Of a DNA stretch of 48,586 nucleotides, positions 21,618-41,846 are shown one piece after another. The stretch covers positions 1-48,586 of the forward strand of contig JAFXVY010000085.1 of assembly GCA_017534595.1 (NCBI GenBank), in the 5' to 3' direction. Position 1 is the first letter of the stretch, and each line of letters begins with the position of its first letter. Position numbers and translations under genes: made by a program. Below the pieces are notes generated by a model. The model had not been told where the DNA came from, did no database searches, and saw nothing but the letters and a program-made list of their open reading frames with translations. The DNA is from Ruminococcus sp. (GTDB lineage Bacteria; Bacillota; Clostridia; Oscillospirales; Ruminococcaceae).

Positions 21618-21655
21618 CTGCACAGCAGGCCGGGATACGGCGCTGTGCAGTTTTT
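21618..21655 (+). terminator. Rho-independent terminator
   Basis: CTGCACAGC (21618-21626) pairs perfectly with GCTGTGCAG (21642-21650) and is followed by TTTTT. It separates the CobD-like operon from the YfhO gene, whose ribosome site begins right after it, so some readthrough is likely. Confidence 0.8.
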
Positions 21656-21674
21656 GAAAGGACAGGTGAGAGGC

Positions 21675-24095: not shown

Positions 24096-25133
24096 TTATA
24101 TTTTGTTCAGTTTCTCCCTGTACTTCGCAAACATCTCCGCTGTCTCCGGCGACTTTACCTCCTGCCCGTTCACAGTAAAGGTGTCCGAGCCGTTCGATAC
24201 CTCGCAGACCGTCACAAGCGTCCCGAACCGGACAAAGGATACACCCAGCGTACCTGTCGGGTAGGCGATCTTTTCCGTCCCAACGCCACCCAGCGAAAGA
24301 TACATCTCCGTGCAGATGTCGATAAGGTCGTCACATTCCTGCCTCGGCAGCTCTTTTCTGTCGTCAGCCTCGAACTTGTGCTGCGTGAAGCGCACCGTCC
24401 CGAAGGACTGCCCCGCTCCGCCTATCTCGCACCTCGATCCGCAGATGTCAAGGTACTGCTCCGGGTATCTCCCGAGCTCGCTGACCTCTTCAAAGGAGTA
24501 CTCACTTTTGTCGGAAGAATTGATACAGCAGTATACCTTCGTCCCCGGTTCCGCCGTCCACTCCGCAAAGTCAACACGCAGATCGTCAAAGCAGAAGCAC
24601 GCGCACCCGGTCAGATCGTAGCCGGTGATGAGCTTGAACTCGTTTACCGTCGATTGCTTTTCCGCAGTTCCGGGAGAGCTGAAATTGAGGTACATCTCAC
24701 CCCCGAGGTACTCCCGGTTTTCGTCAGCGGCGTGGTTTTTGAGATAGGTCTCCATGGCATTACAGAGCAGCCCGGCCTTATCATTGCCGTCGAGCTCCGT
24801 AAAATTTTTCAGCACTGTCCCTTTCGGGATGACAACGATCGCGCTGTCGTTCGGATCCGGCTTGATATAGATCGGCTCGGCCTCGAGGCTCTCGGTGCCG
24901 GACTTCGGCTCGACCCTTGCGGTGCGCGAGGCGAGGAAAAGTATCCCCGCGCCGAGTATAAGTGCGGCACAGGCCGCGGCTATGAACACAGGCATCCTGC
25001 TTTTGAGCTGTACCGGCTCGGGGACGCTTTTTCTTTGCGTGATCTCCCCGGAGATGGTCTCCGAGTTCTCCGGCAGACCGTTGAGCAGCTCGTCGAGCGG
25101 TATATCCTGTATGATCTCATCTATATTTCTCAT
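24096..25133 (-). CDS. Putative transmembrane anti-sigma factor
   Basis: A 345-residue single-pass protein. The first 46 residues are cytoplasmic and acidic, a membrane segment lies about 48-68 (IAAACAALILGAGILFLAS), and about 275 residues are outside. The ectodomain is rich in Asp, Glu and Cys (a GCACFCF cluster near 176-182) and matches no family I recognise. Its ATG overlaps the stop of the sigma factor gene (ATGA), the classic sigma/anti-sigma arrangement. There is no visible zinc-finger anti-sigma motif (HxxxCxxC), so the function is inferred from position and topology. Confidence 0.65.
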   Translation of the reverse strand: MRNIDEIIQDIPLDELLNGLPENSETISGEITQRKSVPEPVQLKSRMPVFIAAACAALILGAGILFLASRTARVEPKSGTESLEAEPIYIKPDPNDSAIVVIPKGTVLKNFTELDGNDKAGLLCNAMETYLKNHAADENREYLGGEMYLNFSSPGTAEKQSTVNEFKLITGYDLTGCACFCFDDLRVDFAEWTAEPGTKVYCCINSSDKSEYSFEEVSELGRYPEQYLDICGSRCEIGGAGQSFGTVRFTQHKFEADDRKELPRQECDDLIDICTEMYLSLGGVGTEKIAYPTGTLGVSFVRFGTLVTVCEVSNGSDTFTVNGQEVKSPETAEMFAKYREKLNKI

Positions 25134-25681
25134 AAGAGTATTCCTCCTTTCAGGAGAGCTTCCTTCAGCCTTTTTCTGCCCCGGTAGAGGATGTTCTCGA
25201 CTTTCTTTTCGCTGAGGTGCTCACGTTTTGCTATGTCCTTCACCGGCATATTGAAGTAGTATCTGTCGATGAATACCTGCTTGTCGGGGGAGGGCATCGT
25301 GCTTATGCAGGCGATGACAGTATTTCGGTTGAGCTCCCGGGCTTCCTTGTCCTCATAATTGAGCTCGATGCCGAGGTCGTTCTCGGCCTTGGGGATGACC
25401 TCCTGCCGCTTGATGCGGTTCATGTAGCGGAGCTTGTCGGATATGCAGCTGCGGGCGATCATGCAGATGTAGTTTTTGAGGCTCTTGCGGTCGGTGTCGA
25501 TATCGTGCCTTGCACGCCAGAGCTTGAAGAAGGTGTCGGATCTGATCTCCTCTATGTCGGTATCAGACTCGAAGATGCCGGAGGCGATCCCGGTCACGAG
25601 CCTGCCGTACTTTTTGATTATCTCCTGCAAAGCGGCTTCGTCGCCGGATCTCATTCTTTCTGTCAGCTGGAGGTCTGTCAT
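25130..25681 (-). CDS. ECF-type RNA polymerase sigma factor
   Basis: A 183-residue ECF sigma factor. Region 2 shows SDTFFKLWRARHDIDTD with LKNYICMIARSCISDKLR, and region 4 shows PSPDKQVFIDRYYFNMPVKD followed by a helix-turn-helix EHLSEKKVENILYRGRKRLKE. No region 3 or region 1.1 is present. I prefer the ATG at 25681 (MTDLQLTERMRSGDEAAL), the usual ECF start; an earlier ATG at 25705 adds eight residues. It overlaps the anti-sigma-type gene and reads against the replication fork. Confidence 0.93.
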   Translation of the reverse strand: MTDLQLTERMRSGDEAALQEIIKKYGRLVTGIASGIFESDTDIEEIRSDTFFKLWRARHDIDTDRKSLKNYICMIARSCISDKLRYMNRIKRQEVIPKAENDLGIELNYEDKEARELNRNTVIACISTMPSPDKQVFIDRYYFNMPVKDIAKREHLSEKKVENILYRGRKRLKEALLKGGILL

Positions 25682-25792
25682 CTGCTTCACCGCCCTTTCA
25701 TCCACTTATACGACAAGTATGGATGAAGCACTCACTTTAACTGATAACATTCTGTAAACATTTCGTGAACTTTTGCCGCAAAAGTGAGTGAT

Positions 25793-26129: not shown

Positions 26130-26158
26130 TTGACAAAATGTTGTTGTATTGGTATAAT
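26130..26158 (+). promoter_or_regulatory. Perfect sigma-A promoter for the 26.4-39.9 kb transport locus
   Basis: TTGACA (26130-26135) and TATAAT (26153-26158) have 17-base spacing, both hexamers perfect. The leader to the first start codon (26397) is about 230 bases. In it lie an ATCAAAA/TTTTGAT inverted pair around 26206-26226 and three ATGACG repeats, two of them followed by an A-run (ATGACGGAAAAAC, ATGACGAAAAACC). These may be regulator sites. Confidence 0.88.
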
Positions 26159-26396: not shown

Positions 26397-27074
26397 ATGG
26401 GTGCGATAATTACGACAAGCGGTCTCTGCCGCGATTTTAAGATAGGCGACGGCAGCACCGTCTCCGCTCTGAAGAACGTGAATATTGAGATCGAATCGGG
26501 CAAGCTCACGGTGCTACGCGGGCGCTCGGGAAGCGGAAAGACTACTCTTATAAATATACTCGGTGCTCTCGATAAGCCGACCAAGGGCTCCGTCCTGTTC
26601 GACGGAAGGGATATCACCAAGCTCTCCGAAAGAAAGCGCGACGAGCTCAGGCGGTATGAGATGAGCTTCGTATTCCAGTCGGTCGCGCTGATGAGCAGCA
26701 TGAACGCCTTTGAAAATGTGGAGTTCGGGCTGCGGCTGTCCAAGTTTCCCTACGGTGAGCGGGACAAGAAGGTGCGCGAGGTGATGAGAAGGGTCGGGCT
26801 CGAGAAGAGAATGTTCCACAGGCCCAGCGAGATGTCCGGCGGCGAGCAGCAGAGAGTTGCGATCGCAAGGGCTATCGCCCACGACCCCAAGGTCGTCTTT
26901 GCCGACGAGCCTACCGCCGAGCTGGATACCGCCACGGCGCTGCACGTCGTTAAGCTCTTCAAGGAGCTTGTGGCCACACAGGGCATGACGATCATTATGA
27001 CCACGCACGACCCCTCGATGATGGATGTTGCCGACAGGGTCTATACGCTTGAGGACGGTGAGATCATTGAGTGA
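26397..27074 (+). CDS. ABC transporter ATP-binding protein, LolD/MacB type (first of pair)
   Basis: A 225-residue ATPase of the MacB/LolD/FtsE group. Walker A is GRSGSGKTTL, the Q-loop is FVFQSVALMSSMNAFENV, the ABC signature is MSGGEQQRVAIARAI, Walker B is VVFADEPTAELDT and the H-loop is MTTHDPSM. All catalytic residues are intact. The start at 26397 has GAAAGG about 12 bases upstream; the open frame extends 5' to 26256 but that part is not family-like. No FtsX/MacB permease accompanies it. It overlaps the next ATPase gene by eight bases. Confidence 0.88.
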   Translation: MGAIITTSGLCRDFKIGDGSTVSALKNVNIEIESGKLTVLRGRSGSGKTTLINILGALDKPTKGSVLFDGRDITKLSERKRDELRRYEMSFVFQSVALMSSMNAFENVEFGLRLSKFPYGERDKKVREVMRRVGLEKRMFHRPSEMSGGEQQRVAIARAIAHDPKVVFADEPTAELDTATALHVVKLFKELVATQGMTIIMTTHDPSMMDVADRVYTLEDGEIIE

Positions 27075-28062
27075 ATCGGCTGACGATAAGATCATAAAGG
27101 GCATCTATGACGAGATAGATGACAGACCCTCCGATGATAACAGTTTAGCACCCGTTAATGATGAATACATGATACGGTGTGAAAACCTGGTGAAGATTTA
27201 CAAGACCGATGAGATCGAGGTCGTGGCTCTGCAAGGTCTGGATCTCGACGTCAAGCGCGGCGAGCTGATGGCGATAGTCGGCAATTCGGGAAGCGGAAAA
27301 TCAACGCTGCTGAATATGCTCGGCGGCCTCGACAAGCCCTCCGCCGGAAGCCTTACCGTTGACGGCAAGAACCTGCTGAAATTCAACGATAAGGATTATA
27401 TGCAGTATAAACGCGATACGGTCGGGTTCGTGTGGCAGAACAACGCAAGAAACCTCGTCCCGTATCTGACAGCCGTGCAGAACGTTGAGCTGCCGATGCT
27501 GCTCAAGGGCTCCAAAAGAAGGCGCGACAGAGCGCTGGAGCTGCTCGAGAAGGTCGGGCTGTCACACAGGAAGAATTCGAGGCTCGATCAGATGTCGGGC
27601 GGCGAGCAGCAGAGAGTCGCCATAGCGATAGCGCTGGCAAACGACCCCAAGCTCCTCCTCGCAGACGAGCCCACCGGCTCGGTCGATACCAAGACCTCGA
27701 ATATGATCCTCGATATATTCAAGAACCTAAACGAGAGCGAAAGACTTACGATAGTTATAGTAACGCACGACGTCAAGCTCTCGAAAAGGATAGACAGAGT
27801 CGTGGCGATCAGGGACGGGCGGACGAGCTCGGAGATCGTCAGGAAGAAATCCTACGCCCAGGAGCTCGATGAGCTTTCCGCTCTCGGAGAGGGCGAGCTC
27901 GAGGATACCCACGAGGAGCTCGTGGTGCTCGACCGCTCGGGAAGGCTCCAGCTGCCCAAGGAGTATATGGAGCAGCTCGGCATCAGGGGCGGCGACAAAG
28001 TCAAGGTCGAGCTCGACGAGGCCACGGGAAAAATGTTCCTGTTCCCCTCGGGCAGACAGTAA
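27067..28062 (+). CDS. ABC ATPase fused to an AbrB/SpoVT-like C-terminal domain
   Basis: A 331-residue second ATPase with TTG start (27067) overlapping the first gene and GGTGAG upstream. An acidic N-terminal 34 residues precede the ATPase core: Walker A GNSGSGKSTLL, signature MSGGEQQRVAIAIAL, Walker B LLLADEPTGSVDT and H-loop VIVTHDVK. After a linker rich in Glu and Leu, residues 285-331 read VVLDRSGRLQLPKEYMEQLG then GGDKVKVELDEATGKMFLF, the swapped-hairpin AbrB pattern. The role of the extra domain is unknown: oligomerisation, or DNA or effector binding. The two ATPases likely heterodimerise. Confidence 0.88.
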   Translation: MSESADDKIIKGIYDEIDDRPSDDNSLAPVNDEYMIRCENLVKIYKTDEIEVVALQGLDLDVKRGELMAIVGNSGSGKSTLLNMLGGLDKPSAGSLTVDGKNLLKFNDKDYMQYKRDTVGFVWQNNARNLVPYLTAVQNVELPMLLKGSKRRRDRALELLEKVGLSHRKNSRLDQMSGGEQQRVAIAIALANDPKLLLADEPTGSVDTKTSNMILDIFKNLNESERLTIVIVTHDVKLSKRIDRVVAIRDGRTSSEIVRKKSYAQELDELSALGEGELEDTHEELVVLDRSGRLQLPKEYMEQLGIRGGDKVKVELDEATGKMFLFPSGRQ

Positions 28063-28212
28063 AGGATCTTTTGCCCGCAAGGGTAAGATATACGCCGTAA
28101 GATCAGATCGGACGATCAGTCCCGTTATACTATATATAATAATGTATAGGTGAGCGGACGGCATGGAGTTTCAGGTTTTCAACGGCAATTTTTTACGAAA
28201 GGTGGAAAGAAC

Positions 28213-31110
28213 GTGAAAAACACATTTAAAAAACGTGTTATTTCATCCGCTCTTGCATTGATGCTGGCAGCTACCTGCGGCCTGACAGCCTTTGCAGAGG
28301 AAAGCGGCGGCCAGAAGCTCGATCTCTCAGCTGAAGTCATCGATGCGAGCAACCGCGAAAACGCATACTCGAATTATGTCAAGAAGTATGCGAACGAACC
28401 GAGACCCAATAAGGAAGTCGTTATCAACGGCGCCGACTTCGTCAGCTACGGCGACGGAGCGCAGGTCTCCATTGAAACGGTAGACGGCGAATCGAATGTC
28501 GCCAAGTGGGCAAATCAGGAGGGTACGCTTACCTATGAGGTGAACGTTCCCGAGACGGGCGTGTATAATATCGAAGCTATGTACGAGGCTCTTGAGGGCG
28601 GTACCACTTCGATCGAATTCGCACTGCTCATCGACGGAGTATGCCCCTTTACTACCGCTTCGAGAATAACCCTCTCCAAGAGATGGGTCAACAAGACCGA
28701 GATACTCCAGGACGTAAGAGGAAACGATATCCGTCCCGGACAGGTCGAAGAGGTCTGCTGGCAGGTAAGCCCCTTTAAGGATACCGACGGTCTCTATAAC
28801 GACCCCCTCGGCTTCTATATGACTTCCGGCAAGCATCAGCTCACGCTTCAGTCCACCAAGGCTCAGTTTGCACTGAAATACCTCAAGCTCTATCAGCAGG
28901 AAAAACCCGAACCCTATACCATGCCCGATGCATCGGCGGTTGCAGGAACGCACGCGGAGAGGATACTCCTCGAGGGCGAGACCGCAGATTATAAGTCGGA
29001 CAGAACGCTGTTCCCGACAGCAAACAGAAACTCCTACCTGACTTCTTCCGTAAACGGACAGAGCCCTACCAAGACCAGATACAATACCATCGGCAAGGAT
29101 AACTGGAACAAGGCTACACAGTCCGCGACCTGGAAATTCACCGCTCCCGTTACCGGCTATTATAAAATAGGTATCCGCGCCAAGCAGGACACTATGAGAG
29201 GTATGTACTCCAACAGAAGACTGCTTATCGACGGCAAGGTACCCTACGCCGAGTGCGATCAGATCAAGTTCTACTATGACAGCGACTGGGTGCTGACCGT
29301 TCCCTCCAAGGGCGAGGAGCCTATGTACTTCTACCTCGAGCAGGGCGGGCATGAGCTCACTCTCGAGGCCGTTCCCGGCGAGATCGGCGCTATCATGGGC
29401 GATATCGACGAGATTGTTTATCAGGTAAACAGCTACTACCGTCAGATCCGTGCGATCACCGGACCTACCCCCGATGAGTATAACAACTACGACATCAAGG
29501 GAAGTATCCCCGGCATCATCGACAAGTTCAAGGAATTCTCCGCAAGCCTCAGAGAGCAGATGAAGAAGATCGAGCAGCTTTCCGGTACCGGCGGTACCGA
29601 GGCAGTTACCCTCGATAAGCTCGCCATCGTGCTCGACAAGTGCGTTTCCAAGGCGGACAGGATCCCCTCTATGATGAGTCAGATCAAGGATAACGTTACC
29701 TCCGTTTCTTCGTGGGTAAACCAGTACCGTGAGCAGCCCCTCGAGATAGATATGATCGAGGTGCTCGCTGATGAGGAGGAGTTCACCTCCGCCGACGAGA
29801 GCTTCTTCAAGTCCCTCGGCTTCGGATTCAGATCCTTCATCGGCTCCTTCTTTGAGGACTATAACTCCCTCGCAGAGGATGATACAGAGGCTATGGTCTG
29901 CTGGACTCCTCTCGGCCGTGATAACGCTACCGTTATCCAGACCCTTATCAGCAACGAATATAACCCGACAGCTAATGTCAAGGTAAATATGAAGCTCGTT
30001 CAGACCGGCTACATCGAGGCGACCTTCGCAGGAAAGGGCCCGGATATGGCGCTCTTCCTCGGCGGCGACTTCCCGATACAGCTTGCCGCCCGAGACGTTC
30101 TTGTGGATATGTCGAAGTTCGATGACTTCGATGAGATCATGAAGCGGTTCTCACCGCAGGCCGGCGTGCTCTATGAGTATAACGGCGGCACCTACGGTCT
30201 GCCCGTGGCTCAGAACTTCCCGATGCTCTTCTACCGCTCGGATGTTCTCTCCAACTACGGCATCAATCCCAAGACCGACCTTACTACCTGGGACGGTCTG
30301 CTCAACGTGCTTCCCACCCTCCAGAGGAACTATATGGAGGTCGGGCTCATCCTTCCCGCAGGCAGCGTTATCTCGCCTGTGACCGAGGCAGGAAACACCT
30401 TCGCTACTCTGCTGCTGCAGAAGGGCGTAAACTACTACAACGAGGAACAGACCAAGACCAACTTCGATTCGCAGGAGGCTATCGACGCCTTCGATATGTG
30501 GACAAAGTTCTATACCACATACAGCTTCCAGCAGGCTTATGACGCATTCACCAGATTCAGACAGGGCGATATGCCCGTTCTGATCCAGAACTATACCTTC
30601 TTCAATCAGCTGACAGTTGCAGCTCCCGAGATCAAGGGCTGCTGGAGCTTCCAGCCGATACCCGGCACAGTTCAGGCCGACGGTTCGATCAACCATTCGT
30701 CCTGCTCCGCAGGCTCCGCAGCAGTTATCTTCTCGAGCCTCGACGAGAGCAAGCGGCAGGAAGCCTGGAACTTCGTCAAGTGGTTCACCTCTGACGAGAC
30801 CCAGACCAGCTACGGCAACGACATCGAGGCTATCGTAGGTACTCTCGGACGTTTCGAGACAGCTAACCTCAATGCTCTCGAGCAGCTCAGCTGGACCACC
30901 ACAGAGGTAGCGCTCCTCAAGGAGCAGCTGCTCACTCAGGTGGAGATCCCCGTACTGCCCGCTTCCTACGGTGTAACGAGAGGTATCATGAACGCATTCA
31001 GAGAGACCGTCAACAACGCCGAGAATGCAAGAGATACTCTGTTCTGGTACAACAAGGATATCAACGACGAGATCACACGTAAGCGTGATGACCTCGGTCT
31101 GAACAATTAA
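28213..31110 (+). CDS. Very large extracellular solute-binding protein with two beta-sandwich-like N-terminal domains
   Basis: A 965-residue protein with GTG start after AAAGGTGG. The signal peptide (VISSALALMLAATCGLTAFA) is cleaved by signal peptidase I; there is no lipobox. Residues about 74-226 and 248-400 look like related beta-sandwiches of the carbohydrate-binding type (each has a YNIEAMYEA/YYKIGIRAKQ strand and ends in GxHxLTL). A helical linker follows (400-550), then a MalE-type solute-binding core (558-965) with DMALFLGGDFPIQLAARDVL and YEYNGGTYGLPVAQNFPMLF. Standard cores are about 400 residues alone. Ligand is probably a carbohydrate, by family only. Confidence 0.88.
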   Translation: MKNTFKKRVISSALALMLAATCGLTAFAEESGGQKLDLSAEVIDASNRENAYSNYVKKYANEPRPNKEVVINGADFVSYGDGAQVSIETVDGESNVAKWANQEGTLTYEVNVPETGVYNIEAMYEALEGGTTSIEFALLIDGVCPFTTASRITLSKRWVNKTEILQDVRGNDIRPGQVEEVCWQVSPFKDTDGLYNDPLGFYMTSGKHQLTLQSTKAQFALKYLKLYQQEKPEPYTMPDASAVAGTHAERILLEGETADYKSDRTLFPTANRNSYLTSSVNGQSPTKTRYNTIGKDNWNKATQSATWKFTAPVTGYYKIGIRAKQDTMRGMYSNRRLLIDGKVPYAECDQIKFYYDSDWVLTVPSKGEEPMYFYLEQGGHELTLEAVPGEIGAIMGDIDEIVYQVNSYYRQIRAITGPTPDEYNNYDIKGSIPGIIDKFKEFSASLREQMKKIEQLSGTGGTEAVTLDKLAIVLDKCVSKADRIPSMMSQIKDNVTSVSSWVNQYREQPLEIDMIEVLADEEEFTSADESFFKSLGFGFRSFIGSFFEDYNSLAEDDTEAMVCWTPLGRDNATVIQTLISNEYNPTANVKVNMKLVQTGYIEATFAGKGPDMALFLGGDFPIQLAARDVLVDMSKFDDFDEIMKRFSPQAGVLYEYNGGTYGLPVAQNFPMLFYRSDVLSNYGINPKTDLTTWDGLLNVLPTLQRNYMEVGLILPAGSVISPVTEAGNTFATLLLQKGVNYYNEEQTKTNFDSQEAIDAFDMWTKFYTTYSFQQAYDAFTRFRQGDMPVLIQNYTFFNQLTVAAPEIKGCWSFQPIPGTVQADGSINHSSCSAGSAAVIFSSLDESKRQEAWNFVKWFTSDETQTSYGNDIEAIVGTLGRFETANLNALEQLSWTTTEVALLKEQLLTQVEIPVLPASYGVTRGIMNAFRETVNNAENARDTLFWYNKDINDEITRKRDDLGLNN

Positions 31111-31126
31111 GAGAGGAGGAGATTCG

Positions 31127-32059
31127 ATGGCAAACTACGATGCGCCGGTCAATAAGCAGAGCAAATGGCGCTATACCTGGCACATGATGAAGGTAAACAA
31201 GGGCTGCTACGGACTTCTCGCTCCGTTCATGATCCTGTTCTTCATCTTCACCGTTATCCCCGTCGTGATGTCTCTTCCTATAGGCTTCACGAACTTCAAC
31301 CTGATCCAGACCCCCAAGTGGGTAGGCTTCTCGAACTTCTATACGCTGTTCCTTAACGACGACGTATTCCTTATCGCAGTCAGGAACACCCTGATCTTCG
31401 CGATCTTCACGGGTCCCTTCTCCTATGTGCTCAGCTTCTTTATCGCGTGGCTGATCAATGAGATGCACCCTTTCCTCAAGACATTCTTCACCTTCGTGTT
31501 CTATGCGCCTTCCATGACGACCTCCGTTTATGTTACCTGGCAGCTGATCCTCTCGGGTGACTCCTACGGATACCTGAACGCGATCATGATGGATATCGGA
31601 CTCTTCAATTCGCCCGTCCAGTTCCTGACCGATACCAACTACATCTTACCCGTAGTTATCATCGTTCAGCTGTGGATCTCCATGGGCGCCGGCTTCCTTG
31701 CGATACGCGCAGGCTTCCAGAACATCGATAAGTCGATGTACGAGGCGGGCGCGATCGAGGGCATCAAGAACCGCTGGCAGGAGCTCTTCACCATTACGAT
31801 CCCTTCGATGGGACCCCAGCTGCTGTTCGCAGCCGTAATGCAGATCTCCGCTTCGTTCACCGTAGGTCAGGTAGGCCAGATGCTCGTAGGTCTCCCTTCG
31901 ACAGACTATGCAGCCCACACGATCATGAACCATGCGACAGACTACGGCTCCATACGATACGAGATGGGCTACGCCTCGGCGATATGCTTCGTGCTGTTCA
32001 TGGCGATGCTCCTGGCCAATAAGGGCGTCAACTGGCTGCTCGGAAAATATCTTGATTAA
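31127..32059 (+). CDS. Carbohydrate-type ABC transporter permease, MalF-like (first pair)
   Basis: A 310-residue binding-protein-dependent permease with six predicted membrane helices. The EAA loop that docks the ATPase reads YEAGAIEGIKNRWQELFTIT with the conserved glycine. The N-terminal helix carries LLAPFMILFFIFTVIPVVMS, typical of MalF-like subunits (CUT1). GGAGGAG lies before the ATG, 16 bases after the solute-binding gene. It must pair with the next gene. Confidence 0.93.
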   Translation: MANYDAPVNKQSKWRYTWHMMKVNKGCYGLLAPFMILFFIFTVIPVVMSLPIGFTNFNLIQTPKWVGFSNFYTLFLNDDVFLIAVRNTLIFAIFTGPFSYVLSFFIAWLINEMHPFLKTFFTFVFYAPSMTTSVYVTWQLILSGDSYGYLNAIMMDIGLFNSPVQFLTDTNYILPVVIIVQLWISMGAGFLAIRAGFQNIDKSMYEAGAIEGIKNRWQELFTITIPSMGPQLLFAAVMQISASFTVGQVGQMLVGLPSTDYAAHTIMNHATDYGSIRYEMGYASAICFVLFMAMLLANKGVNWLLGKYLD

Positions 32060-32076
32060 AGGGGGGAGAACTGAAG

Positions 32077-32976
32077 ATGGCAAGAAGGAAGAAAAAGCAG
32101 GTCTCTATCGACAAGCTCAAGGTCAAGGATAAAAAGAAGCGGATCAACGGTTCTCTCGGCGGCGACATAGCGATATTCATATTCCTGGCGCTGCTCGGAC
32201 TCTTTATGATCTTCCCTATCTATTATTCGTTCATCCAGTCGATAAAGCCTATCGAGGAGCTGTTCGTGTTCCCTCCGAAGCTCTACGTCCTTAACCCGAC
32301 GACCAAGAGCTTCTCGGATATGTTCACCGTAGCGGCAAGCCTCTGGGTACCTCTTTCAAGATACATATTCAACAGCGTGTTCATCACAGTAGTAATTTGT
32401 ATCTGCAACCTGTTCGTATGCTGCTGCGCAGGCTTCGTGCTTGCAAAGTGCAGGTTCCCCGGCGACAGATTCTTAAACAAGCTGATCGTTACCGCCCTGC
32501 TTTTCGCATCGAACGCGACCTGGATCATGCAGTTCATGGTTTATTCCAAGCTCCACATGATCGATACCTACTGGGTACTGATACTGCCCAGCATCGCAAC
32601 TCCTCTCGGACTGTTCCTTATGAGACAGTCGATGTCCACTATCCACGACTCGATGATCGAGGCCGCGAAGGTGGACGGCGCAGGTCTGTTCAGGATCTGC
32701 TGGCAGATAGTCGTTCCCAACTCCAAGCCCGCTATCATGACGCTGATAATCTTCGCGTTCCAGGGCGCTTGGAACCTCCAGGGCGGCTCTCTGATCTACT
32801 CCGAGGAGCTCAAGACCCTGCCGACCATCGTTCAGCAGATCGCTGCCGTCGGTCTGGCAAGACAGGGCGTAACATTCGCCTCCGCTGTACTGCTTCTTAT
32901 TCCGCCGCTTGTTGTATTCCTTATCGCGCAGAGCAACGTCATGGAGACCATGGCGAACTCCGGTATCAAGGATTGA
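32077..32976 (+). CDS. Carbohydrate-type ABC transporter permease, MalG-like (first pair)
   Basis: A 299-residue six-helix permease. The EAA loop is IEAAKVDGAGLFRICWQIVV, followed by PNSKPA, and the first helix IFIFLALLGLFMIFPIYYSF is MalG-like. The N-terminus (25 residues) is strongly basic. A GGGGGGAG ribosome site precedes it. Together with the MalF-like gene just upstream it would form one translocation pore. Confidence 0.92.
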   Translation: MARRKKKQVSIDKLKVKDKKKRINGSLGGDIAIFIFLALLGLFMIFPIYYSFIQSIKPIEELFVFPPKLYVLNPTTKSFSDMFTVAASLWVPLSRYIFNSVFITVVICICNLFVCCCAGFVLAKCRFPGDRFLNKLIVTALLFASNATWIMQFMVYSKLHMIDTYWVLILPSIATPLGLFLMRQSMSTIHDSMIEAAKVDGAGLFRICWQIVVPNSKPAIMTLIIFAFQGAWNLQGGSLIYSEELKTLPTIVQQIAAVGLARQGVTFASAVLLLIPPLVVFLIAQSNVMETMANSGIKD

Positions 32977-33024
32977 TAACAGGCTGACAACCAAAATAAT
33001 CGGAAAGGAAACAGGTGATTAGCA

Positions 33025-34653
33025 GTGAAACACGCATTAAGAAAAATACTCAGCCTGTCAATGGCAGCTGTCACCGCGTTGTCAATGTCGGTTACTGCCT
33101 TTGCAGATGAGCCATACAATTCCTATAACTACGACAGCTGGGAGGATGCGGTCCCCTCGCAGAGCGCCTATATGGTAGAGACTACCATCACCGGCGCCGA
33201 GATGGGTCTCTCGAGACTCAGGGATCCCTCGGATCCGCTCTATGTCAGCGATACCGCTCCGCTGTCGCTCAACGGCGCAAGAGATATCTTTATCTATGAG
33301 GAGGATAAGGAGCTGTGGGTAGCGGATGCGAATAACAACCGTATCCTCGTGCTCGGCCTCGACGACTATCAGCTCAAGGCTTGCTATACGGGCGTCAAGG
33401 GCTCCTCGGTGGATAACTTCCTCAACCCCTTCGGCATTTTCGTAAATGTCAGCGAGTCGCTCGGTCAGAAGGTCGTTTATATAGCCGATACCGATAACTC
33501 GAGAATAGTAAAGGCTACCATAAAGGACGAGAAGACCCTCGAGTGCGTAAGAGAGTATACAAAGCCGACGGATTCGATCTATACCGTTCAGAGCTTCAAC
33601 CCCAAGAAGCTCGTAGTCGATAAGAGCGAAACGGTCTATACCGTCGTTAACTCCGTTAATACCGGTTCGGCTATGTTCTCGAGAGAGGGCAAGTTCCTCG
33701 GCTTCTTCGGTGCGAACCGAGTTGAGGTGACCGCTGCCGTTATCGCTCAGAGGATCTGGAGAATGATCGCCTCCGAAGAGCAGCTCGCCGGTATGAAGAG
33801 AAACGTTCCTATCGAGTACGCCAACTTCGATATCGACCTCGACGGCTTCATCTATACCGTTACCGAGCAGAAGACCTCTACCGACGCGGTAAAGAAGCTC
33901 AACCCCGCAGGCTATAACATCTGGAACAACGCCAGAGGCAACGAGTATAAGTTCGGCGACCTCCAGGGCCAGCTGTGGGACCCCGTTACCAACAAGAACT
34001 TCCAGACCAGACTTACCGATATAGATATCAGCAAGGAAGGTCTCATAAACGTTCTCGACTTCGAGACAGGCCGTGTGTTCCAGTACGATAAGGAGTGCAA
34101 CCTTATCTGTATCTTCGGAAGCAAGACCTCGACCTCCGATCAGAGAGGTTCGATGCTCAACCCCAACGCCGTAGAGAGCTGCGGGAAGAGAGTCTTCGTT
34201 GTGGACGGCTCCAAGAACGATATCACAGTGTTCATCGAAACACAGTTCGGCAAGTACGTTCACGCAGCCTTCGCCCTTTATGACGAGGGAAGATACGTCG
34301 AGGCCAAGAGCGAGTGGGAAGAAGTCATCAAGAGAGACGGCGGCTATACCTACGCCTATATCGGTCTCGGCAAGGCCGCTCTGAATGAAGAGCATTTCAG
34401 CAAGGCGCTCAAGTACTTCAAGACCGCTTACGATCAGGATGACTACGATAAGGCGTTCAAGTACGCCAGAGAGGACTTCCTCAGAGAGCACTTCACTCTT
34501 ATCATTATCATCATTGCGGTGCTGATAGTGCTGCTCATCGTGAAGAGCATCCTCAAGAAGAAGGGCATCAAGCTCATAAAGCGGCGCAAGAAACCGCTGG
34601 CAGAAGCGATACCCGCACTGTTCAAGAAGAAGAAAGAAAAGGAGGGAGAATAA
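33025..34653 (+). CDS. Secreted NHL-propeller protein with TPR and C-terminal membrane anchor
   Basis: A 542-residue protein. A signal peptide (ends TAFA before DEPYNS) is followed by NHL-type beta-propeller repeats (about 80-400): ELWVADANNNRILVLG, VVYIADTDNSRIVKAT and further weaker ones. Residues about 415-480 form TPR-like helices (YDEGRYVEAKSEWEEV, AYIGLGKAALNEEHFSKALK). A single membrane helix (about 491-510) and a basic cytoplasmic tail end it. This topology exposes the propeller and TPR outside. GTG start, with AAAGGAAACAGGTG upstream. A scaffold or sensor for the transport machinery is an inference. Confidence 0.85.
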   Translation: MKHALRKILSLSMAAVTALSMSVTAFADEPYNSYNYDSWEDAVPSQSAYMVETTITGAEMGLSRLRDPSDPLYVSDTAPLSLNGARDIFIYEEDKELWVADANNNRILVLGLDDYQLKACYTGVKGSSVDNFLNPFGIFVNVSESLGQKVVYIADTDNSRIVKATIKDEKTLECVREYTKPTDSIYTVQSFNPKKLVVDKSETVYTVVNSVNTGSAMFSREGKFLGFFGANRVEVTAAVIAQRIWRMIASEEQLAGMKRNVPIEYANFDIDLDGFIYTVTEQKTSTDAVKKLNPAGYNIWNNARGNEYKFGDLQGQLWDPVTNKNFQTRLTDIDISKEGLINVLDFETGRVFQYDKECNLICIFGSKTSTSDQRGSMLNPNAVESCGKRVFVVDGSKNDITVFIETQFGKYVHAAFALYDEGRYVEAKSEWEEVIKRDGGYTYAYIGLGKAALNEEHFSKALKYFKTAYDQDDYDKAFKYAREDFLREHFTLIIIIIAVLIVLLIVKSILKKKGIKLIKRRKKPLAEAIPALFKKKKEKEGE

Positions 34654-34654
34654 T

Positions 34655-35284
34655 ATGTATGAATTCACGCAAATGGGATGGCTCAAGCATGTTATTTTCC
34701 ATCCTGTTGAAGGATTTGAAGACCTGAGATGGAAAAAGCAGGGCTCCCTCAAGATAGCGTTCGTTATCGTGTTCCTGCTGTTCGTCGTAATGGTGGCTGA
34801 CAGACAGCTCACCGGCTTCCAGTTCAACCACGCCTATGTAAAGGTGTTCAACGTAGTTCCGCTGCTCGTTCAGTCGGTAGTCTACTTCTTTACCTGGGTA
34901 ATAGGCAACTGGGCACTCTGTACACTGTTCGACGGCGAAGGTACCCTCAAGAAGATCTGCGTTTATTCCGCTTACGCTCTCGTACCGTATATCGTGTGCA
35001 GCGCGATCTCGATCTTCATCTCCAACTTTATCGTATCCGAAGAAGTGATCTGGATGTCTGCGATCTACTACCTCGGCCTCGGCTGGTCGGTAGTGCTGAT
35101 GATCCAGGCCATGAAAGCCGCACATCAGTACAGCTTCGGCAAAACGCTCGTTTCGATGTTCTTTACCCTCGTTGCGATGCTGCTGATCCTGTTCCTGGCT
35201 ATCCTGCTGCTTTCGCTTTTCCAGCAGGTATACGCATTCGGCTATTCGGTATATACCGAGATAGCATATCGAATCAGAGGCTAA
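34655..35284 (+). CDS. YIP1 family membrane protein
   Basis: A 209-residue protein with five hydrophobic segments (about 35-50, 67-85, 102-125, 130-155, 165-190). It has the Yip1/DUF1282-like layout, with a short N-terminus (VIFHPVEGFEDLRWKKQGS) that recurs in bacterial YIP1 proteins. Its start lies one base after the NHL gene's stop, so the two are probably made together. Role unknown; in this locus a membrane partner of the NHL protein is plausible. Confidence 0.75.
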   Translation: MYEFTQMGWLKHVIFHPVEGFEDLRWKKQGSLKIAFVIVFLLFVVMVADRQLTGFQFNHAYVKVFNVVPLLVQSVVYFFTWVIGNWALCTLFDGEGTLKKICVYSAYALVPYIVCSAISIFISNFIVSEEVIWMSAIYYLGLGWSVVLMIQAMKAAHQYSFGKTLVSMFFTLVAMLLILFLAILLLSLFQQVYAFGYSVYTEIAYRIRG

Positions 35285-35302
35285 ATAAGAAACGGTGGTG
35301 TA

Positions 35303-37702
35303 ATGAAAATGGCTGACAGAAAAATCAAAAAAGCAATAACGTTTGCCCTCGTCCTTAGTATGATGATGCCTCTCGGTTCGATGGCCGCCTCTTCAACAGA
35401 GGATGCGGCAGAGCAGGCCACCGCGGATTCCGCAGCGGAGACCGCGGATACCGCTGACAGCGGTGAAGCAGAGGAACCCGAGACCGGCAAGAAGAACAAG
35501 CTTGCCGAAAGGATCACCGACGAAGAAGCGGTAGCCCTCTGCGAGGAGGTCGCTTCCAATGAGTATATGAAGCTCTATATGGACTCCAAGAACGACAGAT
35601 GGGGCGTCTATGTGATCAAGTCGGGTACCTACCTCTGGAGCTCGCCTATTAACGTCAAGGCAGAGGACGGTATCGTGGATACCGCCAAGAACGCCATGAT
35701 GAAGGATGCCAAGCGTAAGCAGATCGGCTCGAGCGCAGCTATCAAGGTGGCCGACCTCAGACAGGAGAAGAGGTCAGAGTCCCCCGCTCCCGATTATTCG
35801 ACCAAGGCAGCAGTCAAGTACTCCAAGGAAAACGGCGGCTTCGCTATCAGATACAACTATAAGGGTCAGGGCGTAGAATTCACTATGCACGTAACTCTTG
35901 AGGACGATCATGTGTATGCCTATGTGGATACTGTCGAGATCCAGGAGGCAAATACAAGTACGACCGACGGTAAGATCCTTACCAAGCTCCAGATCGCTCC
36001 CGCCTTCGGCGCCGTGGCAGGCACCGACAACAACGGCGATCCCGTTGACGGCTATATGATAGTTCCCGACGGAAGCGGTGCCGTTATCAACTATAACAAC
36101 GGCAAGACAAATTACTCCGAGTATTCTCAGCTGATCTACGGCAGAGACTATACTCCCGTACCGCTCAACGCTCCCCGTGTTACCGAGCAGGCTTATATGC
36201 CCGTTATGGCATCGGTATCCGGAAACAACGGATTCGTGGCGGTCGTGTCCGACGGCGATGCCTTCTGCTATGCAAAGGCTAAGGTCAGCGGGCAGGACAG
36301 CCAGGTGTATAACAACTGCTACTTCGAGTTTGAAGTACGAAGCTCCGACTCCTTCTTTATGAGCGGCGATAACTCCAATAAGATCAACGTCTTTGAGAAG
36401 GGCGATATCAAGACCGACCGCTTCGGCATCAAGTATTACCCCATAAGCAACAGCGAGGGCATCAACTACGCCGACTGCGCTGCGGTCTACAGAAATTACC
36501 TCATCAAGGAAAAGGGTCTTACCTCCAAGGTAACAAGCGACTATAACAAGCTCTATCTCGACCTCTACGGCGGCGTGCTCAAGAGAACTTCGATCCTCGG
36601 ACTTCCGTTCAACCTCAAGACCGAGATCACAGGCTTCGATCAGGCCGGCGAGATACTCCAGAAGCTCAAGGACCTCGGCGTTGACGAAACTATCGTCGAT
36701 TACAATGACTGGACCAATAAGTCCATCAAGCAGACGATCTCCACCAGCGCATCCGCTTCGGGTACTCTGGGCGGCAACGGAGATTTCGAGGACCTCAGAA
36801 AGACTGCAGGCACCGAGATCTTCGGTACCATGGATAACTTCATGATGAAGTCCGGTACCTGGGGCTACCTCACCTTCTCCAATACCGCAACGAGGATCTC
36901 CAACGAGTATTCCAGACAGGTAGAGTACAGCCCCGCATTCGGCGTGGCACTCAAGGGCGTGGCTCCCGCACTCGTGGCTCCGAGGACCTACGAAAAGATC
37001 TTCGATGAGATGATCGAGAGCTATAAGGACGAGGGTATCAATGCCATAGGCTTCGGAAGACTCTCCTCCAAGCTCGTGAGCGACTTCTCCACCAAGAGCG
37101 GCGCTTCAAGAAACGACGCCATGAATATCCTCATAAACGGCTACTCCAAGGCCGCAAGCGAGGTCGGCTCGGTAATTTGCGACGGCGCCAATGCGTTCCT
37201 GCTCCCCTATGCTTCCCAGGTAACTGATGTTCCGGTATACTCCAGCGGCTTCAATATCACCGACTACGATATACCGTTCTATCAGATGGTTGTTCACGGC
37301 TATGTGCCTTATTCCACAAAGCCTATCAACGCAAGCTCCAATACCGGCGAGACCTTTATGCTCGGACTTGCGGCAGGCTCGGCTATCCACTACGATATGA
37401 CATACGAAGAAGCGGCAACGCTCCAGGATACCGATTACGACGTGCTCTATTACTCCAACTACGAGGGCTGGATCGAAATGGCAGCAGATCAGTATAAGAT
37501 CGCCGACGAGCTGCTCTCGCCCGTCTCGGATATGATCATCTCCAAGTATGAGATCTCCGAGGACGGAAACGTGCTTACCACCACCTATTCCAAGGACGGT
37601 AAGAACGTAGTGGTAGAGATAGATAAGGCAAATGCAGTTGCAAAGATCGACGGCAAGACCATTGATATGGCTCATGCCATTGAAGGAGGTGTGGAAGGCT
37701 GA
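35303..37702 (+). CDS. DUF5696-like exoprotein
   Basis: A 799-residue secreted protein. A signal peptide (about 1-28, ALVLSMMMPLGSMA) is followed by an acidic Ala/Glu/Asp linker (29-65) and no lipobox. The large part has a beta-sandwich-like front (about 70-310) with the hallmark YMIVPDGSGAVINYNNGK, and an alpha/beta back (about 380-760) with features of a TIM-barrel glycoside-hydrolase-like fold (VDYNDWTNKS, DGANAFLLPYAS). I recognise it as DUF5696-like, but no catalytic pair can be assigned. Its stop overlaps the next start (TGATG). Confidence 0.75.
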   Translation: MKMADRKIKKAITFALVLSMMMPLGSMAASSTEDAAEQATADSAAETADTADSGEAEEPETGKKNKLAERITDEEAVALCEEVASNEYMKLYMDSKNDRWGVYVIKSGTYLWSSPINVKAEDGIVDTAKNAMMKDAKRKQIGSSAAIKVADLRQEKRSESPAPDYSTKAAVKYSKENGGFAIRYNYKGQGVEFTMHVTLEDDHVYAYVDTVEIQEANTSTTDGKILTKLQIAPAFGAVAGTDNNGDPVDGYMIVPDGSGAVINYNNGKTNYSEYSQLIYGRDYTPVPLNAPRVTEQAYMPVMASVSGNNGFVAVVSDGDAFCYAKAKVSGQDSQVYNNCYFEFEVRSSDSFFMSGDNSNKINVFEKGDIKTDRFGIKYYPISNSEGINYADCAAVYRNYLIKEKGLTSKVTSDYNKLYLDLYGGVLKRTSILGLPFNLKTEITGFDQAGEILQKLKDLGVDETIVDYNDWTNKSIKQTISTSASASGTLGGNGDFEDLRKTAGTEIFGTMDNFMMKSGTWGYLTFSNTATRISNEYSRQVEYSPAFGVALKGVAPALVAPRTYEKIFDEMIESYKDEGINAIGFGRLSSKLVSDFSTKSGASRNDAMNILINGYSKAASEVGSVICDGANAFLLPYASQVTDVPVYSSGFNITDYDIPFYQMVVHGYVPYSTKPINASSNTGETFMLGLAAGSAIHYDMTYEEAATLQDTDYDVLYYSNYEGWIEMAADQYKIADELLSPVSDMIISKYEISEDGNVLTTTYSKDGKNVVVEIDKANAVAKIDGKTIDMAHAIEGGVEG

Positions 37703-38841
37703 TGAGTGAGTATGAAAAGGACCTGCTCGAACAGGCGGAGGATGCTGCCGAAGAGGCAGAGGAGACCGTCGGGGAAGTGACCGAGGAAGCGCAGGAGGCA
37801 GAAGAGGCTGTTGAAGCAGTCATCGCCGAAGACGCCGAAGACGCCGAGGACGCTTATGAGTATGCCGGGTCTTCCGCAGCTGAGGCAGCTGCCGAGGTAA
37901 GCTATGAGGAGCCTCCCGCAAGAAACTCCAAGAAGCAGAAGGGCGCAAGGATCTCCTACGAGAGAAAGAAGCGCCTCTACGGCTACGGCTTTATCGCCCT
38001 CTGGATAATCGGTACGCTCTATTTCTTCATCTACCCGCTGATCGTTTCGATAGTTTATTCCTTCAACAAGACAACTGTCGGCGAGGGCGGAATGGAGCTC
38101 AAGAACATAGGCTTCGACAACTACGTCAATGCTTTCAGGCACGACACCAACTACACCAAGGCGCTCGTTGACACCCTCTCGAGCACCGCACTCAAAACAC
38201 CTCTGATCCTCGTATTCTCGATATTCATCGCTGTAATACTCAATCAGAAGTTCAGAGGAAGAACCTTCGCAAGAGCCGTATTCTTCCTCCCCGTTATCAT
38301 CGCCACCGGTCCTGTTATCGATATCATCAACGGCAACATGAGCACCACCGGTACCTCCGGCAACGCTGAGCAGTTCTCTACACTCTTCGAGGCCAACCTC
38401 GTTGACGAGCTGCTGGAATTCCTCGGTATCTATAACATAAGCGACAGGCTGACGGAGATAATAAATACTCTGACGTCGGAGATCTTCAACCTCGTGTGGA
38501 ACTCGGGTATCCAGATACTCCTGTTCCTCTCGGCACTGCAGGGAATACCGTTCTCTGCAAAGGAAGCCGCTCAGATGGAGGGTGCAACTTCGTGGGAGTA
38601 TTTCTGGAAGATCACGATCCCCTATATCAGCCCTCAGATACTGACCTGCCTTGTCTATACGGTTGTCGATTCGTTCGTTGACCCCGGCAACCAGGTAATG
38701 GAAATCGTAATCGGCAAGGCTAATCAGTGGGAGCACGGATACATGGCCGCAATGGCATGGGCTTACTTCCTGATCATCGGTATCGCTCTGGCGATCATCG
38801 TAGCGATCGTTAATAAGTTCATTTACTATGAAGTAGAGTAA
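37702..38841 (+). CDS. MalF-like permease with long acidic N-terminal extension (second pair)
   Basis: A 379-residue permease. Residues 1-75 are extremely acidic (Glu/Ala/Asp repeats such as EAEEAVEAVIAEDAEDAEDA) and precede a basic stretch KKQKGAR; no standard MalF has this. The membrane part starts near residue 94 (IALWIIGTLYFFIYPLIVSI). The EAA loop is KEAAQMEGATSWEYFWKIT with PYISPQ after it. Start overlaps the DUF5696 stop. The acidic part faces the cytoplasm, so it could contact ATPases or ribosomes. Confidence 0.9.
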   Translation: MSEYEKDLLEQAEDAAEEAEETVGEVTEEAQEAEEAVEAVIAEDAEDAEDAYEYAGSSAAEAAAEVSYEEPPARNSKKQKGARISYERKKRLYGYGFIALWIIGTLYFFIYPLIVSIVYSFNKTTVGEGGMELKNIGFDNYVNAFRHDTNYTKALVDTLSSTALKTPLILVFSIFIAVILNQKFRGRTFARAVFFLPVIIATGPVIDIINGNMSTTGTSGNAEQFSTLFEANLVDELLEFLGIYNISDRLTEIINTLTSEIFNLVWNSGIQILLFLSALQGIPFSAKEAAQMEGATSWEYFWKITIPYISPQILTCLVYTVVDSFVDPGNQVMEIVIGKANQWEHGYMAAMAWAYFLIIGIALAIIVAIVNKFIYYEVE

Positions 38842-38853
38842 GGGGGGATAACA

Positions 38854-39879
38854 GTGGCAACCAAAAAGGAAGAAAAACAGTTTGAAAAAGAACGCAAGGC
38901 TGCTAACAAAGCCCGCCTGAAAAGGATGAAGGAGGAGGGCATTGAAAAGTACCTTACCCCCGAACAGATCCGATACAACAGGAACAAGAGGATCATCGGC
39001 GCGATCTGGCCGATATTCAGATTTCTGATCCTGTTCGGACTTTGCTTCGTTATCCTCTATCCCCTGATCTATATGCTTTCAACAGCATTCAGACCCAGTG
39101 AGCAGATGAACGACCCGTCGGTAGTATGGCTGCCCAAGAGCCTGACGCTCCAGAACATCAAAGAGACCTGGGATGTTATGGACTTCGGCGCAACGGTAGG
39201 CACTACCTTAAGAATGAACGTTATATCGTCCATTCTCCAGGTTATCACCTGCGCGATCACCGGCTACGGCTTCGCAAGATTCCAGTTCAAGTTCAAGAAG
39301 CTGCTCTTTGCGATAGTAGTTATGATGATCATAGTTCCCCCTCAGATCATCACCATCCCGCTGTTCATGCAGTTCAGATTCTTCTTCGGAAGCACGAGCA
39401 TCTCGCTGATCGACACCGGTTGGGCGATGTATCTGCCGGCGATGTTTGCAAACGGAATCAGAGCCGGTCTGTTCATCTTCATATTCAGGCAGTTCTTCAG
39501 AGGTCTGCCGAAGGAGCTTGAAGATGCTGCATATCTTGACGGCTGCGGGCCGTTCAAGACATTCCTTGTCATCATGGTACCTAACGCGAAGACATCTTTC
39601 CTGACGGTATTCCTGTTCTCGATCGTATGGTACTGGAACGACTTCTATGTATCGAGCTCATTCTTCAACAACACGAAGACGGTAGCGCTGATGTTAAAGA
39701 ACCTTGACGCGCAGCTGCGAGTTAAGCTGTTCAACAACCAGGCGGTATCGACGAGACAGATAATCGTATGGCTTGAAGCCGGATGTGTACTTTCGATAAC
39801 GCCGCTGCTTGTAATGTATGTATTCCTGCAACGGTACTTCATTGAAGGTATTGAACGTTCGGGTATTACGGGTATGTAA
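38854..39879 (+). CDS. MalG-like permease (second pair)
   Basis: A 341-residue permease with GTG start after AGGGGGG. The N-terminus is long and basic (about 50 residues), then helix 1 is FLILFGLCFVILYPLIYMLS. The EAA loop reads EDAAYLDGCGPFKTFLVIM then VPNAKTS, so one alanine-to-aspartate style change is seen. It closes the locus. A terminator begins 12 bases after the stop. Confidence 0.91.
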   Translation: MATKKEEKQFEKERKAANKARLKRMKEEGIEKYLTPEQIRYNRNKRIIGAIWPIFRFLILFGLCFVILYPLIYMLSTAFRPSEQMNDPSVVWLPKSLTLQNIKETWDVMDFGATVGTTLRMNVISSILQVITCAITGYGFARFQFKFKKLLFAIVVMMIIVPPQIITIPLFMQFRFFFGSTSISLIDTGWAMYLPAMFANGIRAGLFIFIFRQFFRGLPKELEDAAYLDGCGPFKTFLVIMVPNAKTSFLTVFLFSIVWYWNDFYVSSSFFNNTKTVALMLKNLDAQLRVKLFNNQAVSTRQIIVWLEAGCVLSITPLLVMYVFLQRYFIEGIERSGITGM

Positions 39880-40682: not shown

Positions 40683-41846
40683 ATGAAAAAGTATCTGGCC
40701 TCCCTCGCCGCCGCAGCCCTCACCCTCTCCCTCGTGAGCTGCGGTAACAGTATCGGCGAGAACAGTGAGCTTACTACTAAACATACCGTCACCTCTGTCC
40801 CCCTCGAAACAGAAGTACCCCCCGCCGAAACCTCTGTCCCAACTACCGAAACTATCACGGAGACTACTACCGAGATCACCGAGCCGGTACCCGAAACAAC
40901 TGTCTCTACCGTCCTCCCCCTCGAGGAAATGATGCCCTCCTACGGCGAGTGGGCTAAGAATAATATCATCATCGCCGACAGATATGAGGGCGATAAGGTA
41001 AGAGCCCTGCTCTCGTTCTATTCTACCGAAAGCATCGGCCAGACCTATGCCGAAATGATAAACCGCTATAAGGAAATGGTCGGCAGCAGCGTCAATGTCT
41101 ATAATATGAGCGTGCCCCTCGCCTCGGCTTTCTATATGCCGCCCGATATGGCCGACGCCTACGACGACCAGAGCCAGGCTATCAAGGATCTCGGCAAGTA
41201 CCTCAGCTCGGATGTTACCAACGTGGATCTCATCGACGTGCTGAACAAGCACCTCGCCGAATATATCTATTCCCGTACCGACCACCATTGGCAGCCCCTC
41301 GGCGCATATTATGCAGCCCAGTATTTCTGCCAGCTCGCCGGCGTTCCCTCGGCTCCCCTCGACAGCTACGAGCAGTGTAAGATAGAGGGCTTCGGCGGCA
41401 CGATGAACTATTTCAGCGGCTATGTCAAGGAGCTCGGAGACCACCCCGATACCTTCTATTATTATAAGCCCGCCAATGACTATACCGTTACCTATTACGA
41501 CAGCTGGTTCTCAAACGGCGTAGTGGACGACCTGTTCTATGACTGGGTCTCCGGCGACGGCTGCTATTCCGCTATCATGGGCGGCGACCGCAATATCACC
41601 GAGATCAAGACCGATGTCGGCAACGGCAGATGCCTCGTGCTCATCAAGGACAGCTACGGAAACGCCCTCGTGCCTTTCTTTGTGGGCAGCTTCGAGAAGA
41701 TCTATGTCGTTGATTTCAGATATGTCGATATCTCCATGAAGGAGCTGTTCGAGAGGATCGGCGTCACCGACGTGCTGTTCGGAATGTCGGTGTCCAGCGG
41801 CTATACCCCCGGCCAGATCCAGCTCATGAGCGATATGATGGAGTAA
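40683..41846 (+). CDS. DHHW-family lipoprotein (SGNH-like)
   Basis: A 387-residue lipoprotein: signal peptide with lipobox LVSCG, then a Thr/Pro/Glu-rich linker (about 25-75). The domain carries the namesake TDHHWQPLGAYYAAQYF near 200 and IKDSYGNALVPFF near 323, as in AlgX/DltD-related SGNH proteins that act on surface polysaccharide acylation. The DHHW aspartate and histidine and the serine in KDSYGN are candidate catalytic residues. AAAGGAG precedes the ATG. Confidence 0.87.
   Translation: MKKYLASLAAAALTLSLVSCGNSIGENSELTTKHTVTSVPLETEVPPAETSVPTTETITETTTEITEPVPETTVSTVLPLEEMMPSYGEWAKNNIIIADRYEGDKVRALLSFYSTESIGQTYAEMINRYKEMVGSSVNVYNMSVPLASAFYMPPDMADAYDDQSQAIKDLGKYLSSDVTNVDLIDVLNKHLAEYIYSRTDHHWQPLGAYYAAQYFCQLAGVPSAPLDSYEQCKIEGFGGTMNYFSGYVKELGDHPDTFYYYKPANDYTVTYYDSWFSNGVVDDLFYDWVSGDGCYSAIMGGDRNITEIKTDVGNGRCLVLIKDSYGNALVPFFVGSFEKIYVVDFRYVDISMKELFERIGVTDVLFGMSVSSGYTPGQIQLMSDMME

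Follow-up and report, generated by a model that had tools for sequence, protein, structure and literature searches.

A probable dual-pore carbohydrate importer and the putative ATPase pair of a separate FtsX-type transporter, probably co-transcribed in Ruminococcus sp.

Ten-gene locus

The window (the whole stretch of DNA analysed; 48,586 nucleotides of Ruminococcus sp., GenBank assembly GCA_017534595.1, contig JAFXVY010000085.1, here C132) belongs to a 2.88 Mb assembly of 144 contigs (93% complete) and carries at 26397–39879 ten open reading frames (ORFs), all on the + strand, with gaps of −8, 150, 16, 17, 48, 1, 18, −1 and 12 nt. A preliminary description, made from the letters alone, had presented them as ten coupled or near-coupled genes bounded by a perfect promoter and a strong terminator; this layout was confirmed. 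It had further proposed, as one of two readings, that the two ATP-binding cassette (ABC) ATPases at the head of the locus drive the MalF/MalG (MalFG) permease pores behind them. The ten-gene locus is real, but it holds no new ATPase–pore pairing. Judged from sequence, it is likely that parts of two separate ABC machines share one probable transcription unit: an eight-gene importer driven by an MsmX-type ATPase, and type VII ATPases whose permease lies on contig C87. The features are as follows:

26130..26158, +: promoter TTGACA-17-TATAAT, 12/12, sigma-A-type, with extended −10 (TG)
26397..27074, +: ATP1, LolD/FtsE/MacB-class ABC ATPase, 225 aa; pairs with ATP2 and an FtsX permease in relatives
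27067..28062, +: ATP2, LolD/MacB-class ABC ATPase with AbrB/MazE-like C-terminal tail, 331 aa, TTG start
28213..31110, +: SBP, giant solute-binding protein, 965 aa; signal peptide; C-terminal SBP_bac_8/SBP_bac_1
31127..32059, +: F1, MalF/UgpA-type permease, EAA loop
32077..32976, +: G1, MalG/UgpE-type permease, EAA loop
33025..34653, +: NHL-TPR-TM, NHL propeller, TPR-like part and a single C-terminal transmembrane (TM) segment
34655..35284, +: YIP1, YIP1-family membrane protein
35303..37702, +: DUF5696, secreted protein, distantly glycosidase-like; Pfam 2.3e-155
37702..38841, +: F2, second MalF-type permease, acidic N-terminal extension, EAA loop
38854..39879, +: G2, second MalG-type permease, EAA loop
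39890..39916, +: intrinsic terminator, 12-pair stem and T-run

ATP2 starts with TTG at 27067 and overlaps ATP1 by 8 nt. The SBP matched SBP_bac_8 at 1.9e-22; its CBM35-like stretch (23.2 bits) is under the Pfam cut-off, as are the TPR matches of NHL-TPR-TM, the TM segment of which was judged by eye. The EAA loops of F1, G1, F2 and G2 are ordinary. The SBP and DUF5696 proteins had been called unanchored: a lipobox (crude pattern) is missing from 11/12 SBPs and 11/12 DUF5696 proteins of the GTDB family of the window (f1), and the two matches look weak ('AATC' in the window SBP, 'LLSC' in the DUF5696 protein of G258); DUF5696 relatives in L053, L054 and Paenibacillus have an apparent N-terminal membrane anchor (by eye).

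Eight-gene core

Two samples were used: an order sample of 295 genomes, and an f1 draw of 148 genomes from 123 genera; families other than f1 are coded f7, f14, f16, f19, f23 and f24. All counts of genome presence and absence ignore shared ancestry. The ATP2 profile was built from f1 sequences (threshold 1e-75 in the order sample, 1e-100 in the f1 draw); in the f1 draw the thresholds for the permease and for DUF5696 were 1e-60 each. Some absences of ATP2 may be false, as no more than 14 ATPase candidates were scored per genome of the f1 draw and G379 escaped the 1e-100 threshold.

The order SBP-F1-G1-NHL-YIP1-DUF5696-F2-G2 was found as eight ORFs in 34/37 core loci, picked by high DUF5696 score and not randomly (SBP cut by the sequence edge in L040 and L227); of the other three, L054 and L053 have an NHL-YIP1 fusion, and L053 and L215 are cut. 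Genome G067 (L052, L053) carries a second, diverged core with an NHL-YIP1 fusion. Among 72,556 plasmid records DUF5696 was matched in two, from Butyrivibrio fibrisolvens (core order kept; GH43 gene alongside) and Paenibacillus cellulosilyticus (core order kept; NHL-YIP1 as one 719-aa protein). Since NHL-TPR-TM and YIP1 are fused in L053, L054 and Paenibacillus, the two probably act together. DUF5696 relatives were not confirmed in viral contigs.

The DUF5696-marked core is widespread: DUF5696 was matched in 161/295 order genomes (153 over the Pfam cut-off), and Butyrivibrio and Paenibacillus share the gene order. It commonly occurs without the ATPases. In the order sample 139/161 DUF5696-positive genomes had no ATP2 match at 1e-75, and ATP2 was unassociated with DUF5696 (22/161 vs 18/134; odds ratio (OR) 1.02). 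Genome G201 (f1) has the core and lacks both ATP2 and the permease; 30 genomes of f1 have DUF5696 without ATP2 and permease, and the ten loci inspected among them (L221–L230) all hold the eight genes in order with no ATP1 or ATP2 in the region. Conversely, 9/23 f1 genomes with ATP2 gave no DUF5696 match at 1e-60 (four of these nine are <85% complete). The ATPases are not co-conserved with the core, an outcome that the preliminary description had itself named as contrary to its proposal. Within f1 a positive association was seen: DUF5696 is present in 14/23 ATP2-positive vs 31/125 ATP2-negative genomes (OR 4.7, p 0.001).

A DUF5696 profile (23 sequences) weakly matched the glycosidase structures 5opq (3,6-anhydro-D-galactosidase), 5wzn (alpha-N-acetylgalactosaminidase) and the related 8rzg, over the N-terminal part and some of the barrel; whole-sequence E-values were 2.9e-6 to 4.8e-3, those of the single domains shown 0.27–0.36 at best. 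The family of 5opq and 5wzn is presumably GH129. The DUF5696 barrel (limits estimated) has no column that is at least 80% acidic among the 23 sequences; hydrolysis is therefore not assured, and binding is no less likely a role. Matches to designed pentatricopeptide proteins in the PDB were dropped, each repeat scoring <4 bits.

ATPase pair and FtsX permease

The best NCBIfam match of ATP1 and ATP2 is TIGR02211 LolD (212.2 and 231.8 bits); both scores are under the equivalog cut-off of 307.75, and LolD proper (lipoprotein release) was rejected. The better PDB sequence matches include LolD, YtrE and MacB chains, the top match of ATP2 being Rv1281c. Domain searches gave no MalK/MsmX-type C-terminal OB domain in either ATPase. 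The tail of ATP2 (residues ~283–331) is MazE/AbrB-like (1.2e-5 in the window); it was aligned in 12/12 ATP2 orthologues, 8/12 matching at <=0.1, and is also present in actinobacterial relatives. No relevant literature on AbrB-tailed ABC ATPases was found by titles and the opening parts of abstracts.

Orthologues of ATP2 were found in 40/295 order genomes, 14 of f1 and 26 of f7, f14, f16, f23 and f24. Of the latter, 20/26 were taken for locus inspection: in 19/20 ATP1-ATP2 are immediately preceded, in the same orientation, by a permease, which has ~920–990 residues in 18; the piece in L071 is cut at the contig end, and L072 ends right after ATP2. HlyD-like domains were found in 4/4 upstream neighbours of the permease tested. 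Pfam PF02687 (FtsX) matched two stretches in each of five permeases tested, the C87 permease of the window genome included. A wider ATP2 search gave at least 80 loci, of which 12 (L128–L138, L166) were analysed, the match there reaching the ATP2 tail; the remaining loci among the matches listed resemble general LolD-class ATPases. Seven of these loci are from named Bacillota (Clostridiaceae, Lachnospiraceae, Paenibacillus and others); six include the permease in the cluster and the seventh is cut. Paenibacillus turpanensis has ATP1 ahead of the permease and ATP2 behind it. Five actinobacterial loci (L134, L135, L136, L138, L166) have the ATP2 tail, but their match to permease profile A2, which was built from 11 permeases of non-f1 ATP1-ATP2 loci, is weak (62–135 bits for three of them) or absent; these five were not counted toward the pairing. 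In Bacillota an FtsX-type permease accompanies ATP1-ATP2 wherever the sequence is uncut.

Search with A2 gave one permease in each of 14/14 f1 genomes with ATP1-ATP2 and in 0/7 genomes without ATP2; three further matching genomes, the source of A2 profile rows, were set apart. In the window genome the permease (982 aa) is at C87:8903-11851; it is preceded by a HlyD-like protein of 369 aa (L106:7771-8880; lipobox-like start by eye), which, like its relatives, gave HlyD_3/biotin-lipoyl matches. Across the f1 draw 25 genomes gave the permease, and 23 of these but no others gave ATP2 (Fisher 5.7e-25; 23/2/0/123); the two others, G358 and G379, with ATP2 under threshold, also carry it, one cut at the contig end and one lower-scoring. 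In trees of ATP2 and of the permease the 12 f1 sequences form one clade each (100/98; 100/100). Distance matrices of all gene pairs in nine f1 genomes correlate at 0.79–0.99 and do not discriminate between partners.

In 12/14 f1 genomes inspected the HlyD-permease pair is separate from the core and has other genes as neighbours. In G352, G258 and G273 the HlyD-like gene and the permease follow G2 on the same strand and close the cluster, with a GH26 gene between in G258 and G273. The earlier suggestion that part of the machine is encoded elsewhere is therefore upheld. It was also right that the interval itself holds neither MalK nor FtsX; elsewhere in the genome OB_MalK ATPases are on C57 and C37 and the FtsX permease on C87. 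From this co-occurrence ATP1 and ATP2 are most readily taken as the two ATPases of a type VII transporter of the MacB/LolCDE kind, which would probably be joined physically to the FtsX permease.

The ATPase-less core of G201 (L120) is near a CTP-synthase gene, and in four g4 genomes (L110, L111, L114, L115) a HlyD-FtsX pair stands beside a CTP-synthase-type gene (L120 and L110 tested with Pfam); this neighbourhood is possibly an old shared site.

Promoter and terminator

All 13 f1 relatives examined likewise have a 12/12 promoter before ATP1, and 9/10 core-only f1 loci (G201 included) have one before SBP, the tenth having 11/12. Between ATP2 and SBP of the window no promoter site of at least 9/12 was found on the + strand; in ten ten-gene loci the best site of this gap has 8–10 of 12. 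Scores of 9–11 were obtained in the f19 loci and L054, and likewise in six adaptor-permease loci. The chance expectation of a perfect promoter per 420 nt is ~0.005 with the examined loci as background and 0.016 from the perfect sites of the window genome itself (G000: 221 TTGACA-N16-18-TATAAT sites in 2.88 Mb; backwards pattern, 0). Generic scans were no richer than shuffles (promoters 10 vs 12.2; terminators 12 vs 13.0). Rfam at gathering scores gave no matches in the window and L106. The simplest reading is that in f1 the ATPase pair is placed between the strong promoter of the core and the first core gene; with this placement, both machines are probably made together.

Candidate ATPase of the MalFG pores

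An OB_MalK ATPase is present in 146/161 DUF5696-positive vs 97/134 DUF5696-negative order genomes (OR 3.7, p 5e-5) and in 14/14 f1 order-sample genomes with ATP2. On the Paenibacillus cellulosilyticus plasmid the gene immediately before SBP is that of a ugpC ATPase. The core of G151 (f14) shares its strand with genes for a lectin-like protein, GH43, an arabinofuranosidase (presumably GH51), GH127 and an MsmX-type ATPase, followed in the list by araA and a kinase of the FGGY type; in G036 GH127 and an MsmX-type ATPase are likewise near the core. The window genome has a stand-alone MsmX on C57 (L208:6211-7353; 436 bits to B. subtilis MsmX 6yir, 578 bits to 7x0q), a second OB_MalK ATPase on C37 beside its own permease pair, and another permease pair on C44 (12.6-kb contig) with no ATPase on that contig. 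From the linkage in other lineages, a shared MsmX/UgpC-type ATPase (C57) would energise the pores.

Several observations weigh against this assignment and against a strict separation of the two machines. Of the DUF5696-positive genomes 15/161 have no OB_MalK match, seven of the OB_MalK-less genomes being at least 93% complete (G034, G158, G207, G209, G237, G245, G265); some cores may thus use another motor. Only Paenibacillus and f14 showed linkage to MsmX; the f19 gene is ~10 kb off, among other genes, and no MsmX was found within the ten inspected core-only f1 regions. Of the four MsmX residues tested by mutation in PMC7658222, three (D77, R104, E110) are conserved in the MsmX of the window genome, and the fourth, K154, is replaced by Q. 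Finally, at least ten genera keep ATP1-ATP2 in the leading position before the core, a placement that strict separation leaves unexplained.

Proposed explanation and alternatives

The eight-gene core would be a conserved type I carbohydrate importer. The giant secreted SBP and the glycosidase-like DUF5696 exoprotein would catch hemicellulose-derived oligosaccharides, a substrate suggested because GH26, GH43, arabinofuranosidase, GH127 and araA are linked in relatives; the two MalF/MalG pores would admit what is captured, NHL-TPR-TM and YIP1 may together serve as a membrane tether for the unanchored exoproteins, and the pores would be powered by the shared MsmX/UgpC-type ATPase from elsewhere in the genome, here that on C57. 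ATP1-ATP2 would work with the 982-aa permease on C87, which has two FtsX stretches, and with its HlyD-like partner on the same contig. In f1 both machines would probably be co-made from the promoter of the core.

That ATP1 and ATP2 power both MalFG pores in f1, in place of MalK/MsmX, is highly improbable. The conserved adjacency, the shared promoter, the match of two ATPases to two permease pairs and the ordinary EAA loops of F1, G1, F2 and G2 speak for it. Against these stand the travelling of ATP1-ATP2 with the FtsX permease, the complete cores without them in G201 and in 10/10 inspected f1 loci lacking ATP2, the 9/23 f1 ATP2 genomes without a DUF5696 match (four <85% complete), the UgpC ATPase that occupies the slot in Paenibacillus, and the OB_MalK ATPase in 14/14 f1 order-sample ATP2 genomes. 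The presence/absence pattern across genomes speaks against ATP1/ATP2 as the MalFG motors, and the proposal of the preliminary description is not supported; an FtsX-type permease always encoded with these ATPases, which it had named as contrary to its proposal, is what was found, or nearly so, in Bacillota where the sequence is uncut.

Two other readings concern the relation between the machines. The ATPase pair may merely use the promoter of the core, the FtsX transporter being unrelated to the importer; such regulatory hitch-hiking is a serious alternative, held somewhat short of an even chance. The ATP2–DUF5696 association is nil across the order (OR 1.02), the FtsX module has no adjoining core in 20 non-f1 loci, and the permease pair is apart from the core in 12/14 f1 genomes, all in favour of this reading; it is opposed by the positive association inside f1 (OR 4.7, p 0.001; ancestry ignored), by the gene order kept in at least ten genera, and by the HlyD-like gene and permease that close the cluster in three genomes. 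The same complete clusters in G352, G258 and G273 (GH26 gene between in the last two), together with the shared promoter, are in line with a rather unlikely view in which the FtsX machine serves the importer: it would handle, release or export the giant exoproteins, or clear bound polysaccharide, so that 12–13 genes form one envelope system. A type VII system is described in the abstract of PMC11491553 as using ATP to induce mechanical force, which suits this view; most core carriers are without the FtsX machine and the FtsX module exists without the core, which does not. A fuller version is more doubtful still: a twelve- to thirteen-gene hemicellulose-capture envelope machine in f1, in which a MacB-like FtsX/adaptor complex driven by the ATPase pair would act mechanically on the giant unanchored SBP and the glycosidase-like exoprotein, which feed the dual-MalFG, MsmX-driven importer, and the AbrB-tailed ATP2 could also report to DNA or couple the complexes.

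Relation to known systems

The core shares EAA-loop MalF/MalG permeases, an SBP and a stand-alone MsmX-type ATPase with MsmX-dependent type I importers (for example B. subtilis AraNPQ/MsmX; PMC7658222), and resembles them also in its linkage to arabinan-type genes in one f14 genome; it departs from them in its doubled MalFG pair, in the unanchored SBP of 965 aa and in the fixed NHL-TPR-TM, YIP1 and DUF5696 proteins. With the type VII systems MacAB, LolCDE and YbbAP the second machine has in common nucleotide-binding domains of the LolD/MacB class, an FtsX-domain permease and a HlyD-like partner; it differs in one long two-FtsX-stretch permease with two different ATPases, in the AbrB-like tail of ATP2, and in that the f1 ATPase genes sit in a sugar-import operon, away from that of the permease. 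Among open-licence PMC papers none was found that mentions DUF5696, that joins 'YIP1 family protein' with 'sugar ABC transporter permease', or that combines any three of the terms YIP1, NHL repeat, solute-binding protein and polysaccharide utilization. As an importer variant, the core seems to be absent from the literature searched. If the reading of two machines is true, the plant-fibre feeding routes known in Bacillota would gain a dual-pore importer in which NHL/YIP1 is a fixed membrane unit. As a caution, conserved operon adjacency hinted at the wrong pore motor, and genome presence/absence pointed to another partner.

Neighbouring genes

Two genes are divergent from the ten-gene operon: a membrane-type protein without Pfam match (24096-25133, − strand) and an ECF-type sigma factor (25130-25705, − strand). 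The flanks at 40683-41846 and 21645-24020 encode a DHHW protein and a YfhO membrane protein, apparently unrelated.

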